Of a stretch of 37,297 nucleotides of DNA, positions 31,603-37,201 are shown piece by piece. Below the pieces are notes generated by a model that was given only the letters and a program-made list of their open reading frames with translations, ran no database searches and was not told the DNA's origin. The stretch is from Bacteroidia bacterium 43-41 (GTDB taxonomy: Bacteria > Bacteroidota > Bacteroidia > Bacteroidales > Dysgonomonadaceae): positions 1 through 37,297 of the forward strand of contig MKTD01000002.1 in NCBI GenBank assembly GCA_001898165.1, given 5' to 3'. How positions within the stretch are numbered: position 1 is the stretch's first letter; each line of letters opens with the position of its first letter. The translations under genes and the position numbers were made by a program.

Positions 31603-31687
31603 GGAGAGATGGCAGAGTGGTCGATCGCGGCGGTCTTGAAAACCGTTGAAGTGAGAGCTTCCGGGGGTTCGAATCCCTCTCTCTCCG
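31603..31687 (+). tRNA. tRNA-Ser (anticodon TGA)
   Basis: 85-nt class II tRNA. GGAGAGA pairs with TCTCTCC, the anticodon stem CGGTC/AACCG holds the loop with TGA, a long variable arm follows, and the T-arm is GGGGGTTCGAATCCCTC. The region to its right looks accessory, so it is a candidate integration site. Confidence 0.95.
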
Positions 31688-31726
31688 CTGATAGGTTCAG
31701 ACAGAACTAAGACAAAATCAGACAAG

Positions 31727-31810: not shown

Positions 31811-31841
31811 TTGTGGAGAGATTCTAAATGTTTTACCTTTG
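31811..31841 (+). promoter_or_regulatory. Transposase promoter with its -33 box in the terminal repeat
   Basis: TTG (31811-31813), inside the inner part of the left terminal repeat, is followed after exactly 20 nt by TACCTTTG (31834-31841). The downstream ATG at 31846 begins only 4 bases later, so the transcript would be nearly leaderless. Confidence 0.65.
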
Positions 31842-31845
31842 TAGC

Positions 31846-32187
31846 ATGAAAACAGGCTATGAGTTATTGTTGCCGCAGGGCATGACAGATTACTTTGAGG
31901 TAATAGAGGTTGAAGAGATCGACAAAATTATCATTTTACATCTGGAAGAGAAAAGTTTATCGCCATCAGAGGTGCCGGGAAGAAGCTTTATATCCAAAGG
32001 TTTTTACCCGTCTGTCGACATTCATGATTTTCCCATCCGGGACAAGGGTTGTATCCTGCGGGTGCGTCGCCGTCGCTGGCAGGACAAGCGAACGGGTGAT
32101 CCCTACATGCGTGACTGGGATGTGATAGCCGACGGCACTCGCCTGACCCGTGAGTTCGTCGCTTTTTTAAAAGCATTATCTCGATAG
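31846..32187 (+). CDS. ISAon1-type transposase, N-terminal region protein
   Basis: A 113-residue frame when started at ATG 31846; the alternative ATG at 31828 would lie upstream of the -7 box. The sequence starts MKTGYELLLPQGMTDYFEVI, has a basic strip GCILRVRRRRWQDKRTGDPY and ends EFVAFLKALSR. This matches the N-terminal region protein annotated as a separate family upstream of ISAon1-type transposases and should provide DNA binding, likely terminal-repeat recognition. Its 3' end overlaps the transposase frame by 17 nt. Confidence 0.82.
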   Translation: MKTGYELLLPQGMTDYFEVIEVEEIDKIIILHLEEKSLSPSEVPGRSFISKGFYPSVDIHDFPIRDKGCILRVRRRRWQDKRTGDPYMRDWDVIADGTRLTREFVAFLKALSR

Positions 32188-33163
32188 CGAGCCGGTCAAC
32201 TGTACCACCCTGGGTAAATTCTTCCATCTGGACGGCAAGAGGCTTGAAGAGTGGTACAGATGCTATCTTTCAGGTTTTCACCAATGGAAGGCACGCGAAC
32301 ACGCCGCAGACTATCTGCTTTTTCCCGAGAATATAGGCCCCTACCTGAGCATCGATGAGACTGCATTGAGTTATGACGAGCTCTATACGATTGTCACCAA
32401 CAAGGAGGCAAAGGGTCGCAAAGGTTCCGTGGTGGCCATTATCAAGGGAACATCGGCGGAAACGGTAATAAAGCATCTGGGGAAGATTCCTGCCAGCAAA
32501 CGCAGGAAAGTAAGGGAGGTAACCCTGGATATGGCTGCCAACATGGAACTGATTGCCCGGCGGTGTTTCCCCGCGGCAAGTCTTGTCACAGACCGTTTCC
32601 ATGTCCAGAAGCTGGCTGTCGAAGCCCTGCAGGAGATGCGTGTTGCCTACCGCTGGGAAGCCCTTGACCTGGAGAACAGGGAAATGGAACTGGCCAGGGA
32701 AACCGGGCAAAGTTACAAACCCATACAGCTCGGGAATGGGGATACGCATAAACAACTGCTGGCCAGGAGCCGGTATTTGCTTTTCAAGGCAGACGACAAA
32801 TGGACTCCTTCACAGCGTGTACGGGCTGAAATCCTGTTCCACTATTACCCCAACCTTGAAACAGCTTACAAGCTGACAATGCAACTCAAAGGCATTTACG
32901 AACATACTACGGACAAAAGGTTTGCCCTGGGGCGGCTTGCCCGGTGGTATGAAGCCGTGGAACAGTCAGCATTCAAGACCTTCAATACTGCCAAAAGAAG
33001 TATAGCGGCCCATTACACAACTATTATCAATTATTTTGACAGACGAGCCACAAATGCTTCGGCGGAATCTTTCAATGCTAAGATCAAAGCTTTCAGGGCT
33101 ACATTAAGGGGTGTAAAACATATTCCCTATTTTTTATTCAGGCTTACCAATATTTATGCCTAG
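32171..33163 (+). CDS. ISAon1-type DDE transposase, in +1 frame without its own start
   Basis: The frame opens after TAA at 32168-32170 and runs to 33163 (330 codons). Catalytic residues are D in LSIDETALS (codon at 32354), D in LVTDRFHVQ and E in NASAESFNAKIK, as in ISL3-like DDE transposases. No ATG, GTG or TTG occurs in this frame before the first catalytic Asp; the first (TTG 32366) would omit it. An active protein therefore needs a +1 frameshift from the upstream frame within the 17-nt overlap (for example at AAA-G, 32170-32173) or an unusual start. The coordinates give the open frame, not a proven start. Confidence 0.82.
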   Translation, partial: KHYLDSEPVNCTTLGKFFHLDGKRLEEWYRCYLSGFHQWKAREHAADYLLFPENIGPYLSIDETALSYDELYTIVTNKEAKGRKGSVVAIIKGTSAETVIKHLGKIPASKRRKVREVTLDMAANMELIARRCFPAASLVTDRFHVQKLAVEALQEMRVAYRWEALDLENREMELARETGQSYKPIQLGNGDTHKQLLARSRYLLFKADDKWTPSQRVRAEILFHYYPNLETAYKLTMQLKGIYEHTTDKRFALGRLARWYEAVEQSAFKTFNTAKRSIAAHYTTIINYFDRRATNASAESFNAKIKAFRATLRGVKHIPYFLFRLTNIYA

Positions 33164-33406: not shown

Positions 33407-34171
33407 TTAGCCGATTTCAATTGTTTTTTCAGGATTAAATGTGTGATGTTCATTGTGAGAAACATATCCCAACTGGTTGCTTACACATTTCGTTTTTCTG
33501 ATTATCTTATCAATATTCCGGTGCGAATGTCCGTAAATCCAGTATTCTATCGGACTACTCTTGATGTATTGTTCCAATTCAACTGTAAAAGCGCCGTTTA
33601 TTTTACTTCCGGCAAAATCGGGCGAAGCCAACTGAAACGACGGAACATGATGCGTTACAACAATAATATGTTCCGCTGTGCTCTTCGTCACTTCGTCCTG
33701 AATAAAGCGGAAACATTCGTCGTGTTCACGATTGAAGTTGTCCCATGTCAACAGCTCACCATTGTATAAAATCCGATGAAAGTCGCTAACGCCACGTTCG
33801 GTAATGTAGGCTTCTTCCAATGAAATTTTCGCCCATAAGGTTGAAATGATAAAGTCAACGTTTTCTATCCGGATAACAGCATCGTAATAACATTTCACAT
33901 TGTCCCGAATCGAACAAACCAAACCATGCGGCATGTTGGCCAAATCGTAGTATTTGTATAGTTCGTGGTTTCCAACAGCGACAATCACTTGCTTATAATT
34001 TTCCGAAGCCCAATCCCAAAACGGATGCTTGCCGTAATTGTCATCATTCAGATAACCGATATCGCCTGCAAGAACGAGAATATCGCCCACAGGTTTCAAT
34101 GGATTCCGTTTCAGGTAGCTGTAATTATCCGAAAATTCCAAGTGTAAATCCGATGCATATTGAATTTTCAT
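33407..34171 (-). CDS. Calcineurin-like metallophosphoesterase
   Basis: A 254-residue protein from MKIQYASDLHLEF (ATG 34169-34171); an ATG 15 nt upstream (MESNKMK) would overlap the previous gene by 14 nt. All metallophosphoesterase motifs are present: SDLHLEF (D-x-H), LAGDIG (G-D), VGNHELY (G-N-H-E), VTHHVPS and YGHSHRN (G-H-S-H). It should hydrolyse a phosphodiester or phosphomonoester with two metal ions. It is third in an overlapping operon with a nucleotidyltransferase and a regulator, so its substrate may be a product or target of the transferase. That link is inference. Confidence 0.87.
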   Translation of the reverse strand: MKIQYASDLHLEFSDNYSYLKRNPLKPVGDILVLAGDIGYLNDDNYGKHPFWDWASENYKQVIVAVGNHELYKYYDLANMPHGLVCSIRDNVKCYYDAVIRIENVDFIISTLWAKISLEEAYITERGVSDFHRILYNGELLTWDNFNREHDECFRFIQDEVTKSTAEHIIVVTHHVPSFQLASPDFAGSKINGAFTVELEQYIKSSPIEYWIYGHSHRNIDKIIRKTKCVSNQLGYVSHNEHHTFNPEKTIEIG

Positions 34172-34172
34172 T

Positions 34173-34952
34173 TTATTCGATTCCAAATATTTCTTTCATA
34201 ATACCGAGAAAACCACGAATATCATCATCGGTACGCTGTAAACTGTCTCGCAAAGACTGATTCGGTAAAGATTCTTCCATTGTGCTAATGAAAACGCTTA
34301 CTTCATCTTTCATCGTAGCCGATAATTCAACAGGTGTAAGCGGGTCGATACGCATGGCAAAGAGTTTGAAAACATCATCCCTGTGCTTTTTGATGTCGGC
34401 GCTGCGAACGTTCGGATTGATTTTCTTTTCTTCCGTCAAGTTCAGAAATGCCTTTACTTTCAAGCACAGAAGGGACAACGGGTCGGCAATACGAATGCCT
34501 TCTTCAATGATACTGCTATCAATGGTGTGACAATAATATTCTTCATCCAACAGAATAGCCGAAAGGCTTGGAATTTCTTCACCAACAGGAATGGGTGTTA
34601 AGTGAAAGCCTGTTGGTTCACCCAACACGTCAGGATATTTAGATAGCAATTCTATTTGTACCGGATAGCCGTTCTTTGGGTCGCTAAACCGGAACAACTC
34701 GGTCACAGGTTCTTTGTCTTCCCGCTTACGTTGACGGGTTTCGTATTCGCCATCAACAATAAAATCCCAAAAGCGTTGACCAAATTCAGGTGTCATCTTT
34801 TCAATGACCAATATCATATCAATATCGTCGGTTGCACGCGGACGCATATCGGTGTCCCGTAATGCAATATCGCAGGCCGTTCCCCCAATGATAACATAGT
34901 TATCTTCAAATCCGGCGAAGTATTCTTTGAATTTTTCCAGTCCTTTTACCAT
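34173..34952 (-). CDS. Nucleotidyltransferase-fold protein, AbiEii-like toxin candidate
   Basis: A 259-residue protein. NYVIIGGTACDIALRDTDMR holds the G-G motif at residues 23-24, RATDDIDMILVIE the D-x-D metal pair at 43-45, and PVQIELLSKYPD a later acidic position, the pattern of pol-beta-like nucleotidyltransferases such as AbiEii/MenA-type toxins. The C-terminal part (PLSLLCLKVKAFLN, KKHRDDVFKLF) also matches this group, which has K-x-x-A-x-x-x-R-x-K-x-x-D-x-x-D. The start overlaps the regulator by 7 nt and the stop lies 1 nt before the phosphoesterase start. Toxin action, for example tRNA nucleotide addition, is inferred. Confidence 0.8.
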   Translation of the reverse strand: MVKGLEKFKEYFAGFEDNYVIIGGTACDIALRDTDMRPRATDDIDMILVIEKMTPEFGQRFWDFIVDGEYETRQRKREDKEPVTELFRFSDPKNGYPVQIELLSKYPDVLGEPTGFHLTPIPVGEEIPSLSAILLDEEYYCHTIDSSIIEEGIRIADPLSLLCLKVKAFLNLTEEKKINPNVRSADIKKHRDDVFKLFAMRIDPLTPVELSATMKDEVSVFISTMEESLPNQSLRDSLQRTDDDIRGFLGIMKEIFGIE

Positions 34953-35902
34953 TTTATTTCCTCTATCATTATTTCCAATTCTTTTTCAATTCGTGAATCC
35001 GGGTCGCCTTTCATCGACAAGTACAACGAAAGTTTATCGACGATACCACCATTCAGCTGATAAGGTATCGTTACCGGATATTTCCATATTTCGATTTTGT
35101 GCAAACCTTCTATCTCGTTGTATCGACCATTTGTTGGATTGAATTGCTTTTCCCATATTGCAAATGTTCCATTTTGCTCTGGATTCAAGTGCGAGTAATG
35201 CGATAAAGCATTTATGCCGCTTATGCTGAAATTACCTTTGGGCACAACATCACAATATAAGGTTTTCTTGACAGGCGATGACAAATAACTTTGGGCTTTT
35301 GTCCACAATTCACGCTTGGAAATGCTAAAACGAATGAATTTAATTCCTGTATCATCTTGAATTTCGGTATCGCACAACTGACAGTTTTCAAGGCTCATGA
35401 CGGCACGCGCCAGCGTTACATAGTTGTAAGGCACAATTTCTTCCAACTTCTTAATCGTGAATTCATTTTCGTTTTTCTCATCCAATAGATAATATAGCAG
35501 CACATATTGTGCGGCAGGGGTTAATCTCATTGGGTTCTTATCTCGTTTTTTAGCCTGAACATTCACAATTAAAGATGGCAGAAAAGCGTATTTATCCGAA
35601 ATGATAAAATACACCTCTTGATTTATGAGGCGTTCTCGTTCATAATAGGTCAACGAATCCAGTAGGACAACAACTGGCATATTCATAACCGCTTCAACCT
35701 GCTTCGTAATTCGTTTATAGTTCAAAGGGGTTATGGATTCCTGTGTGTTTTTGGCTCGAATAACACATAAAATCTGATTATTGAAGTCTATCGTATAAAA
35801 CGAAAACCTTAAAAGCATATCAGCATTAAGGCCGCGCAGCTTATCCCGTTTTATCGGAATCAACTCTTTTTGAACGCCTAATATTGAAACTATATTATTC
35901 AT
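34946..35902 (-). CDS. Winged-helix regulator, AbiEi-like antitoxin candidate
   Basis: A 318-residue protein. Residues about 40-120 form an alpha-beta domain (MPVVVLLDSLTYYERERLIN, then VYFIISDKYAFLPSLIVNVQ). Residues about 128-185 fit a winged helix (LTPAAQYVLLYYLLDEKNEN, then LEEIVPYNYVTLARAVMSLE). The C-terminal part (KKTLYCDVVPKGNFSISGIN, ALSHYSHLNPEQNG) resembles the AbiEi-type C-terminal half. It is first in the operon behind a repeated operator, as expected for an autoregulating antitoxin. The family name is not certain; a MarR-like predicted regulator is the alternative. Confidence 0.65.
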   Translation of the reverse strand: MNNIVSILGVQKELIPIKRDKLRGLNADMLLRFSFYTIDFNNQILCVIRAKNTQESITPLNYKRITKQVEAVMNMPVVVLLDSLTYYERERLINQEVYFIISDKYAFLPSLIVNVQAKKRDKNPMRLTPAAQYVLLYYLLDEKNENEFTIKKLEEIVPYNYVTLARAVMSLENCQLCDTEIQDDTGIKFIRFSISKRELWTKAQSYLSSPVKKTLYCDVVPKGNFSISGINALSHYSHLNPEQNGTFAIWEKQFNPTNGRYNEIEGLHKIEIWKYPVTIPYQLNGGIVDKLSLYLSMKGDPDSRIEKELEIMIEEIKW

Positions 35903-35910
35903 AATCAGTT

Positions 35911-35986
35911 ATTATCACTTATTTTTGCACTGTTATCATACATAGTGATAATGATGCAAAAATAGTGATAATAGTTGAATCGGCAA
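35911..35986 (-). promoter_or_regulatory. Operator-promoter of the regulator-NTase-phosphoesterase operon
   Basis: Minus-strand promoter: TTG (35984-35986), 19 nt, TATTTTTG (35957-35964). An inverted repeat surrounds it, with arms 35911-35929 (ATTATCACTTATTTTTGCA) and 35955-35972 that match apart from one extra T. A second inner pair TTATCA / TGATAA (35933-35950) makes four related half-sites of TTATCACT type. The -7 box lies inside the right arm, so repressor binding would block initiation. Confidence 0.75.
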
Positions 35987-36403
35987 ACTCATGACTATAA
36001 CTTTTTTTACTTTCTTTGTTTTTAGGCGGATAGCAAAAAAGTGCAGATTTAGGCAGTTAAAACCTGCAAAATCGCTAACATAAGATTCTTTCCAACCAGC
36101 AATTGGATGATGCAATACTGAATGAAGCCATACAGGAACCTTCAATAACAGATCTACTGTTTACCAGGATACCCATCCTTTATTCACAGATTCCTTTATG
36201 AAAGAAGATGATCGAAATGCGCAATGGAAACGGTTTTTGAAAAAGATAAAATATACAAGCAAATACGCTATCGTTGTGGCCTTGATTTTTATTTTCATGA
36301 CTTGAAATCCAACGTTAAGATAAGCATTTTCAGTGACATATTAGCTAAATATGCTGCTTTTTTTAACTGCGAAACATAAATAATTATTTACCTTATAAAT
36401 AAG
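35987..36403. other. Gene-poor AT-rich stretch between the operon and the DUF1835 gene
   Basis: No supported gene of normal size. A short open run before 36197 (reading ...LDDAILNEAIQEPSITDLLF...) lacks a start and may be a coding relic. A 35-codon frame at 36198-36305 is listed separately. No consensus promoter is seen ahead of 36404. Confidence 0.35.
36198..36305 (+). CDS. Tiny membrane peptide ORF, tentative
   Basis: A 35-residue frame: a basic start MKEDDRNAQWKRFLKKIKYT and a single hydrophobic stretch YAIVVALIFIFMT at the C-terminal end. The shape resembles small toxic or regulatory membrane peptides, but it could also be the remnant of a larger gene together with the open run just upstream. 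Confidence 0.3.
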   Translation: MKEDDRNAQWKRFLKKIKYTSKYAIVVALIFIFMT

Positions 36404-37201
36404 ATGGATATTCACATTGTTTTCGGTCGATGTGCAAAAGGCATTTTAGTTAATAGTGGAGTATTTCTGCCGAATGAAATAAAGCTTATTTGCTTAGAAG
36501 ATATTCTCAATATAGGACCAATTTGTGATTTGGACGATTCTCCTCAGGAAAGAGAAGAATGGTTGGTTAACGTATATGAAATTAACACATTGGAAGAAAG
36601 GGGGGTTAGGAAAATAGTGACCGAAGATATTGAAAAAATAAAGACTCTGCTTGAAAGTATTAATGAAAACAATAAGGTGTTTCTATGGACAGGCATTGAT
36701 CCTATAGATATTATAAGTACAGCCAGATTACTTTCCCATTTTCCGAAATCACACAATAATGTTTATATCGTAGACTACTCTAACATCGCTGTAAAGAACG
36801 AATATGGAAACACTGTATTTCCCCGCTCCTTAGTAACTACATCTTTAGAACAAGTCAAAGTTATTGCAAAAAAATTTAAAAAGATGAGTAATGAAGAGTT
36901 CATAAAATGGAATAAATTGTGGAGAGAAATCAAAAAAGATACATCTCAATTAAGAATCCTTGATAAAAAAGGCAACATAAAAGGGAAGGAAGAATCGTAT
37001 TTTGACTCTCTTTTAGAATCTTATTGTACAAAAGAATTTCAAAAACCTGCCAGAATCATAGGAGCTGTCTTGTGTGATATTGACTTTAATGTCGGAGATG
37101 GTTATTTAAATTGGCGTTTAAAACAGCTTGTTGGCAAGAAAAAGATAGAAGCAAGAGGAGAATTAAATGAAATGAGAGATTATGAAGTAAAGCTACGGTA
37201 A
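36404..37201 (+). CDS. DUF1835/DUF3658-type protein
   Basis: A 265-residue protein. The N-terminal MDIHIVFGRCAKGILVNSGV and LICLEDILNIGPICDLDD match the DUF1835 pattern (H-x-V-F-G-x-S/C-x-x-G-x-L ... D-x-x-x-x-G-P), and VFLWTGIDPIDIISTARLLS follows. The C-terminal RIIGAVLCDIDFNVGDGYLN and WRLKQLVGKKKIEARGELNE fit the DUF3658-like helical domain with a repetitive G-D-x-x-L-x-x-R-L-x-x-L-V. Function is unknown. Codon use is more AT-rich than in the housekeeping part, in line with accessory origin. Confidence 0.8.
   Translation: MDIHIVFGRCAKGILVNSGVFLPNEIKLICLEDILNIGPICDLDDSPQEREEWLVNVYEINTLEERGVRKIVTEDIEKIKTLLESINENNKVFLWTGIDPIDIISTARLLSHFPKSHNNVYIVDYSNIAVKNEYGNTVFPRSLVTTSLEQVKVIAKKFKKMSNEEFIKWNKLWREIKKDTSQLRILDKKGNIKGKEESYFDSLLESYCTKEFQKPARIIGAVLCDIDFNVGDGYLNWRLKQLVGKKKIEARGELNEMRDYEVKLR

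Follow-up and report, generated by a model that had tools for sequence, protein, structure and literature searches.

A nucleotidyltransferase toxin-like operon from a Dysgonomonadaceae genome with a metallophosphoesterase as candidate reset enzyme

AbiE has been called the fourth most abundant prokaryotic phage defence system, and the MenT nucleotidyltransferases (NTases) are relatives of AbiEii, according to the account in PMC11375011. The same account places auto-phosphorylation of these enzymes at a Ser or Thr two residues before the DxD motif (T39 in MenT1, S78 in MenT3) and describes MenT1 T39A as less active. In PMC7725324, MenT3 is described as extending tRNA 3' ends with pyrimidines and as being partly counteracted by RNase PH. 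For TglT, the sections of PMC7205606 drawn on here report that the phosphorylated toxin was not restored by TakA or by itself and slightly by PstP under the first conditions, and that a phosphatase was postulated to reactivate it, the identity of which the authors did not establish. Here we describe a three-gene operon in a 37,297-nucleotide stretch of Bacteroidia bacterium 43-41 (contig MKTD01000002.1, assembly GCA_001898165.1; hereafter the window) that encodes, in this order, a regulator (REG), an NTase (NT) and a calcineurin-like metallophosphoesterase (MPE). We consider it probable that this is an NTase toxin-like module with the phosphoesterase acting in the same pathway, and, judged from sequence, it is most likely a toxin-antitoxin-like module that is mobile and controls its own expression, with MPE undoing the work of the NTase.

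The three open reading frames (ORFs) were found again on the minus strand, from the ORF listing and the sequence, with the starts and overlaps of the original prediction: the REG and NT frames share 7 nt, and the ATG of MPE lies 1 nt past the NT stop codon (an alternative TTG start, 33407-34186, gives a 14-nt overlap with NT). Because the REG/NT overlap and an adjoining phosphoesterase recur across many genomes, this arrangement is more than chance, and the earlier view of the three genes as one unit is upheld as a single operon. Absence of the phosphoesterase from beside the pair elsewhere had been named as what would refute a joint system; instead, it is kept beside the pair in other genomes. 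From 98 loci with both REG and NT, we removed 11 short-NT loci and 12 near-duplicates to give an NT tree of 75 mutually non-independent rows, in which a phosphoesterase lies downstream in 24 rows (L098 and L044 entered as such by hand) and upstream in 7, a second phosphoesterase subfamily lies downstream in 2 and divergent in 1, and contig ends leave 5 uncalled. In the remaining 36, no match of two phosphoesterase profiles, the only families sought, was detected near the pair. A branch supported at 99/96 divides the tree into a side that holds every carrier (34 of its 43 determinable rows) and a side that holds none (0 of 27). The chance neighbour rate is ~1% of loci, given 14 PF00149 matches, the window MPE included, in the 3.6 Mb of the own genome and an estimate of ~3000 genes per genome.

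Counted by genome in the order sample, a phosphoesterase adjoins NT in 14 of 25 (6 downstream, 5 upstream, 3 of the second subfamily). The three genes of that subfamily (L062, PF00149 2.5e-10; L073, 3.1e-8; L079, 4.2e-10), from which its profile was built, carry GDIHGE near the start and are distantly similar to MPE (L079, 5e-6 with the MPE profile); two of them occupy the same slot as MPE, with gaps of -4 and -1 nt. By these comparisons, together with the fusion described below, NTase modules have repeatedly recruited a phosphoesterase, placed downstream or upstream, drawn from a second subfamily, or fused to the NTase. Two plasmids carry tandem phosphoesterase genes, one gene of the MPE family in Parabacteroides (L055, 4421-5768) and both in Microscilla (L056, 4995-6559). 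A decayed operon, L163/L221 (G856:C85), has NT residues 1-112 joined to the C-terminal part of MPE (148-252); considered as an NT-MPE fusion within the window's NT family, it was read as a deletion remnant.

MPE belongs to PF00149 (4.5e-11 in Pfam) and phrog_1649 (3.3e-41), and its DxH, GD, GNH, H and GHxH metal-binding motifs are all present, which bears out its earlier description as an intact calcineurin-like phosphoesterase. The metal ligands D8, H10, D37, N68, H69, H174, H175, H215 and H217 are invariant in 21 of 21 aligned members, all of which also match the PADLOC candidate PDC-S10 (model PDLC04908; 1e-8 for the window protein, with a best stretch of residues 1-110 only).

NT carries the motifs GG24, R39-x-T41-x-D43-x-D45, E101, K165, K189-H190 and D193, of which R39, T41, D43, D45, K165 and K189-H190 are invariant in the NT alignment (T41 in 41 of 41 sequences). 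A comparison with AbiEii and MenT, proposed earlier as a check, gave a MenT/AbiEii-type (MenT/TglT) NTase fold with a helical C-terminal part like that of MenT3. MenT/TglT-type active-site residues are present, and T41 occupies the position of the MenT phosphoacceptor two residues before DxD, the residues having been matched to those named in PMC11375011 by motif order and not by residue-level superposition. Up to an E value of 1, the window NT has no AbiEii match in Pfam or PADLOC; a weak PADLOC AbiEii match (E 0.0011) occurs in 1 of 33 aligned NT relatives, and the plasmid relative L003 bears an AbiEii/AbiGii family annotation. For REG and NT there is no Pfam-A match up to E = 1, no NCBIfam match above the curated cut-off and no PHROG match up to 0.01.

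In REG, a MarR/SarA-like winged helix lies centrally, at about residues 121-207 of 318. AbiEi has its winged helix at the N terminus. REG shows no AbiEi family match in Pfam or PADLOC, and REG as AbiEi is disfavoured by this and by the different domain order; there was likewise no MenA-like match among the comparisons made. The likeness to the AbiEi/AbiEii pair originally proposed thus stands at the level of fold but not by sequence families. The stretch delimited at that time (upper limit 35986) includes a promoter and operator region, 35911-35987, that was left undescribed. There, nested inverted repeats lie over a candidate promoter (Table 1) that follows the Bacteroides consensus (-7 box TAnnTTTG; -33 box TTTG). 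The repeats align across 11 loci, the window included. Compared with 12 other loci, the repeat region is 67-86% identical in 11, vs 38-54% for the DNA just upstream, and the core pattern has a single occurrence in the own genome. A nested palindrome over a promoter is operator-like and suggests autoregulation of the module.

MPE relatives also tie the operon to a second NTase module. A search of the order found 51 MPE places in 44 of 295 genomes; of the 50 examined, 9 lie beside REG/NT, 4 beside a different winged-helix regulator and NTase pair (WH2-NT2) or its remains, and 37 beside neither. Ten of the places are full-length and at least 54% identical to the window MPE, and 7 of these adjoin an NTase gene or what is left of one. 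Among the WH2-NT2 cases, L171 has the order WH2-NT2-MPE with MPE at -4 nt, L205/L223 has MPE upstream of WH2 with a 50-aa NT2 fragment, and L197/L226 has WH2 and an NT2 remnant joined to MPE. The fourth, L172 (G185:C7, 802-2280), encodes a 492-aa NT2-MPE fusion protein behind a WH2 gene (213-818), in which GG, V-T-F-D-V-D and the MPE motifs are all intact. In PADLOC, WH2 of L172 is PDC-M21A (2.2e-46) and NT2 of L172 and L171 is PDC-M21B (3.1e-49 and 9.6e-48), so that the fusion unites PDC-M21B and PDC-S10 in one protein and, by these models, the two catalogued candidates PDC-M21 and PDC-S10 are linked. The window REG and NT have no match to the PDC-M21 models in PADLOC; a comparison of profiles relates NT to NT2 (82% probability, E 1e-5). 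NT2 was found at 26 places, spread over 25 of the 295 genomes, and 14 of 14 NT2 sequences retain R-x-T-x-D-x-D, each with a Thr matching T41.

In an MPE tree of 86 rows (a quick method, no bootstraps, partner labels typed by hand), L171 falls inside the branch of downstream-type phosphoesterases, L205 inside the upstream-type branch and the L172 fusion beside the downstream type; NTase-less genes are interspersed, with 14 changes between with and without. Because the WH2-NT2-linked phosphoesterases fall in or next to these branches, the tree suggests that phosphoesterases moved between two NTase families by partner swaps. The own genome carries a WH2-NT2 (PDC-M21-like) pair of its own on contig C52 (31395-32066; L240), with no MPE detected within 1.5 kb on either side. 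At L168/L218 (G019:C75), an MPE 71% identical to that of the window has a C-terminal extension (352 aa); no NTase was detected there, and an HTH (helix-turn-helix) gene and a HipA-like gene, recognised by eye, follow.

Viral genomes hold further MPE relatives (80 loci kept of 203 found). REG or NT is carried by 8 of the 80, all among the nine most similar, the ninth beginning at a contig end, and MPE as a constant partner of NTases is ruled out on this count. Since MPE-family genes also stand without either NTase pair, MPE may have a wider role than in NTase modules. RNA-repair genes neighbour 2 of 9 inspected non-NTase viral loci: in L267 (2121-4832), the relative lies between Thg1 (4.9e-29) and a T4 RNA ligase 2 (Rnl2-type; 2.6e-23), and in L269 (2306-3765) after an RNA ligase (3.2e-8). 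These two loci are possible phage tRNA-repair cassettes.

The REG-NT pair occurs on plasmid records of Bacteroidota, Pseudomonadota, Bacillota, Campylobacterota and Actinomycetota, and on phage records and viral contigs. NT matches, with fragments counted, were found in 25 of 393 genomes of the order, in 7 of 395 of the phylum sample (the own genome included, three being weak partial matches) and in 7 of 101 of the family sample, and in none of the nine other same-genus genomes listed. By this distribution the REG-NT module is mobile and patchily distributed. Type I restriction genes flank it in 5 of the 25 order genomes (L066, L069, L071, L075 and L078, the last of which starts at a contig end within NT). 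Similarity of the DNA to three same-genus genomes extends through the same tRNA-Ser(TGA) and stops there or shortly after; in G825, the sole same-genus genome with ORFs listed, a 380-aa tyrosine-recombinase-like ORF, recognised by eye, follows the tRNA. The site is thus likely an integration hotspot, in keeping with the accessory location near tRNA-Ser and an insertion sequence proposed before. A DUF1835/DUF3658 protein (window 36404-37201) adjoins the operon, and no link to the module was seen. A HEPN/MNT-type system was weighed and set aside: the three window genes have no small partner gene between them or on either side, and no search aimed at HEPN/MNT was made.

Table 1. Features of the operon and its surroundings (window coordinates)
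Feature	Coordinates	Strand	Basis or remark
REG, 318-aa regulator, candidate antitoxin and autorepressor	34946..35902	-	ATG start; central MarR/SarA-like winged helix
NT, 259-aa nucleotidyltransferase, candidate toxin	34173..34952	-	ATG start; active-site motifs
MPE, 254-aa calcineurin-like metallophosphoesterase	33407..34171	-	ATG start; all metal-binding motifs; PF00149 4.5e-11
Putative operator, nested inverted repeats (TTATCA/TGATAA half-sites and TTGCA/TGCAA arms)	35911..35972	-	directly upstream of REG
-7 box candidate TATTTTTG	35957..35964	-	fits TAnnTTTG; inside operator; mostly conserved columns in operator alignment
-33 box candidate TTTG	35984..35987	-	19 nt before -7 box; by sequence
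tRNA-Ser(TGA)	31603..31688	+	approximate limit of synteny common to three same-genus genomes
ISL3-type transposase, split over two frames	31828-33163		PF01610 4e-49; between tRNA-Ser and operon

How the parts might work together can be sketched from these comparisons. We infer that REG represses the operon and restrains NT; free NT would attach nucleotides to RNA, with tRNA 3' ends as the likeliest site, and stop growth, as others have demonstrated for MenT toxins; and MPE would be the module's reset enzyme, reversing a reaction of the NTase. The target we rank first would be a nucleotide or phosphate left by NT on an RNA end, making a writer/eraser pair, and the second would be phospho-threonine T41 of auto-phosphorylated NT. 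A bias in decay suits NT as the costly part of the module, since NT is damaged far more often than REG: among 102 REG loci, duplicates included, NT has been truncated, shortened or hit by a frameshift beside an intact REG, the contig running on, in 13 (L043, L044, L049, L052, L079, L080, L081, L082, L083, L123, L150, L163 and L164), and the opposite case, REG damaged with NT intact, occurs in 1 (L033). This count omits L051 and L084, which lie at contig ends, L040, whose REG is truncated by one, L088, whose divergent REG was split by the profile, and L149, in which both genes are partial. MPE is still intact beside the damaged NT in L043, L044 and L080.

Several observations weigh against a toxin module with a dedicated reset enzyme. 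MPE is facultative: the two phosphoesterase profiles used gave no match among the NT tree rows across the 99/96 branch, MPE occurs at only 2 of the 26 NT2 places, 37 of the 50 MPE places in the order have neither NTase pair (contig ends truncate some of these, and a few belong to type I restriction loci), and neither pair is present at 72 of the 80 viral loci. Searched as a single sequence or as a 41-row profile, NT matches no solved structure by sequence up to E = 1, and the N- and C-terminal domains of REG were barely covered by the comparison. Some of the broken NT copies come from draft assemblies, that of L079 is an in-frame shortening, and those of L123 and L150 may be merely divergent. 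In the work on known toxins, RNase PH gave no protection from AbiEii in the experiments described in PMC7725324, and PstP, a host phosphatase, is named as a possible candidate for TglT reactivation in the part of PMC7205606 concerned, so that a dedicated phosphatase may not be needed. Nor is the invariance of T41 proof of a phosphatase, because T41 is equally invariant in members that lack MPE.

If MPE resets the module, it could do so as an eraser or repair enzyme for the NTase-altered RNA end, that is, as a second antitoxin, which is our tentative first choice. The viral relatives flanked by Thg1 and RNA ligases, the writer/eraser logic of the L172 fusion and the partial mitigation of MenT3 by RNase PH (in the account of PMC7725324) argue for this, but the RNA-repair genes stand in only 2 of 9 inspected viral loci, RNase PH did not help against AbiEii, and the substrate specificity of MPE is not readable from sequence. 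Alternatively, REG would induce phosphorylation of T41, locking NT off, and MPE would be the phosphatase that removes the phosphate and reactivates NT. Such a role is possible, though somewhat doubtful: the phosphoacceptor Thr is invariant in NT (41/41) and matched in NT2 (14/14), MenT1 T39 and MenT3 S78 are auto-phosphorylated (as given in PMC11375011), an enzyme of this kind was postulated for TglT (as given in PMC7205606), and a toxin and a phosphoesterase are fused in L172, but REG has no MenA-like match, the authors' own candidate was PstP, and the Thr is as invariant where MPE is absent and, with MenT1 T39A less active, is perhaps kept for catalysis. The eraser is ranked slightly over the phosphatase, both being conditional readings, because it also accounts for the RNA-ligase neighbours, which the phosphatase leaves unexplained.

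It is rather unlikely that MPE is an independent defence or toxic effector, a nuclease or a nucleotide-signal hydrolase, merely sharing defence loci with NTase modules. The uniform PDC-S10 matches of its family, the places without an NTase pair, two of which have HsdM or HsdS next to them by Pfam (L198, L201), and the description in PMC12287305 of a phage metallophosphoesterase able to degrade DNA and to counter defence would fit such an effector, but overlapping frames, four configurations and an NTase-MPE fusion exceed a shared neighbourhood. An ordinary AbiE-like toxin-antitoxin pair with the phosphoesterase as a passenger would account for the 36 of 75 tree rows in which none was detected, but it is very improbable and is disfavoured by the L172 fusion and by the NT tree, where phosphoesterases, variously arranged, accompany 34 of the 43 rows on one side against ~1% by chance.

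Taking MPE as a reset enzyme, it becomes a candidate for the so far missing reset enzyme of this NTase toxin class, because it recurs beside such toxins and is fused to one in one genome. Whether REG-NT, PDC-M21 and PDC-S10 form one modular class with a dedicated reset phosphoesterase (separate, in swapped order, from an alternative subfamily or fused), the missing enzyme that reactivates auto-phosphorylated toxins or erases the tRNA mark, seems to us evenly balanced. A phosphoesterase that shares operons with NTases and is once fused to one makes the TglT-phosphatase question, as posed in PMC7205606, directly testable. Beyond this, two defence-catalogue entries, PDC-M21 and PDC-S10, are tied together, and an NTase family without a Pfam match gains a testable role. 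Were MPE to erase an RNA mark, NT and MPE would form a writer/eraser pair, which could explain the viral relatives next to RNA ligases.

Compared with described systems, the module resembles MenAT and TglT-TakA of the AbiEii/DUF1814 superfamily in NT fold and active-site residues, and differs from them in that NT has no sequence match to solved MenT chains, REG has no MenA-like match and the third gene is MPE. With AbiE it shares a helix-turn-helix regulator and an NTase in one operon, one relative bearing the AbiEii/AbiGii annotation, and its palindromic operator suggests autoregulation as reported for AbiEi in work cited in PMC7725324; it differs in lacking Pfam or PADLOC AbiEi and AbiEii matches in the window proteins, in the central winged helix and in the presence of MPE. 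In AbiE itself, toxin and antitoxin do not bind each other, and the toxin arrests growth. By sequence comparison, then, the module is of the NTase toxin-antitoxin kind, MenT-like by NTase fold and not AbiE by family models or regulator layout. PDC-M21 (WH2-NT2) likewise combines a winged-helix regulator with an R-x-T-x-D-x-D NTase and occasionally the same MPE, but its regulator and NTase belong to different families and it is usually without MPE. PDC-S10 is presumably, as its name suggests, a single-gene candidate; MPE matches its model and is here an operon partner and elsewhere (L172) fused to an NTase. A writer/eraser logic like that proposed here operates in DarTG and in tRNA-modifying toxSAS with hydrolase antitoxins, which use unrelated enzyme families, and the KKP kinase-kinase-phosphatase module, whose enzymes belong to families unrelated to NT and MPE, is alike in its kinase/phosphatase logic.

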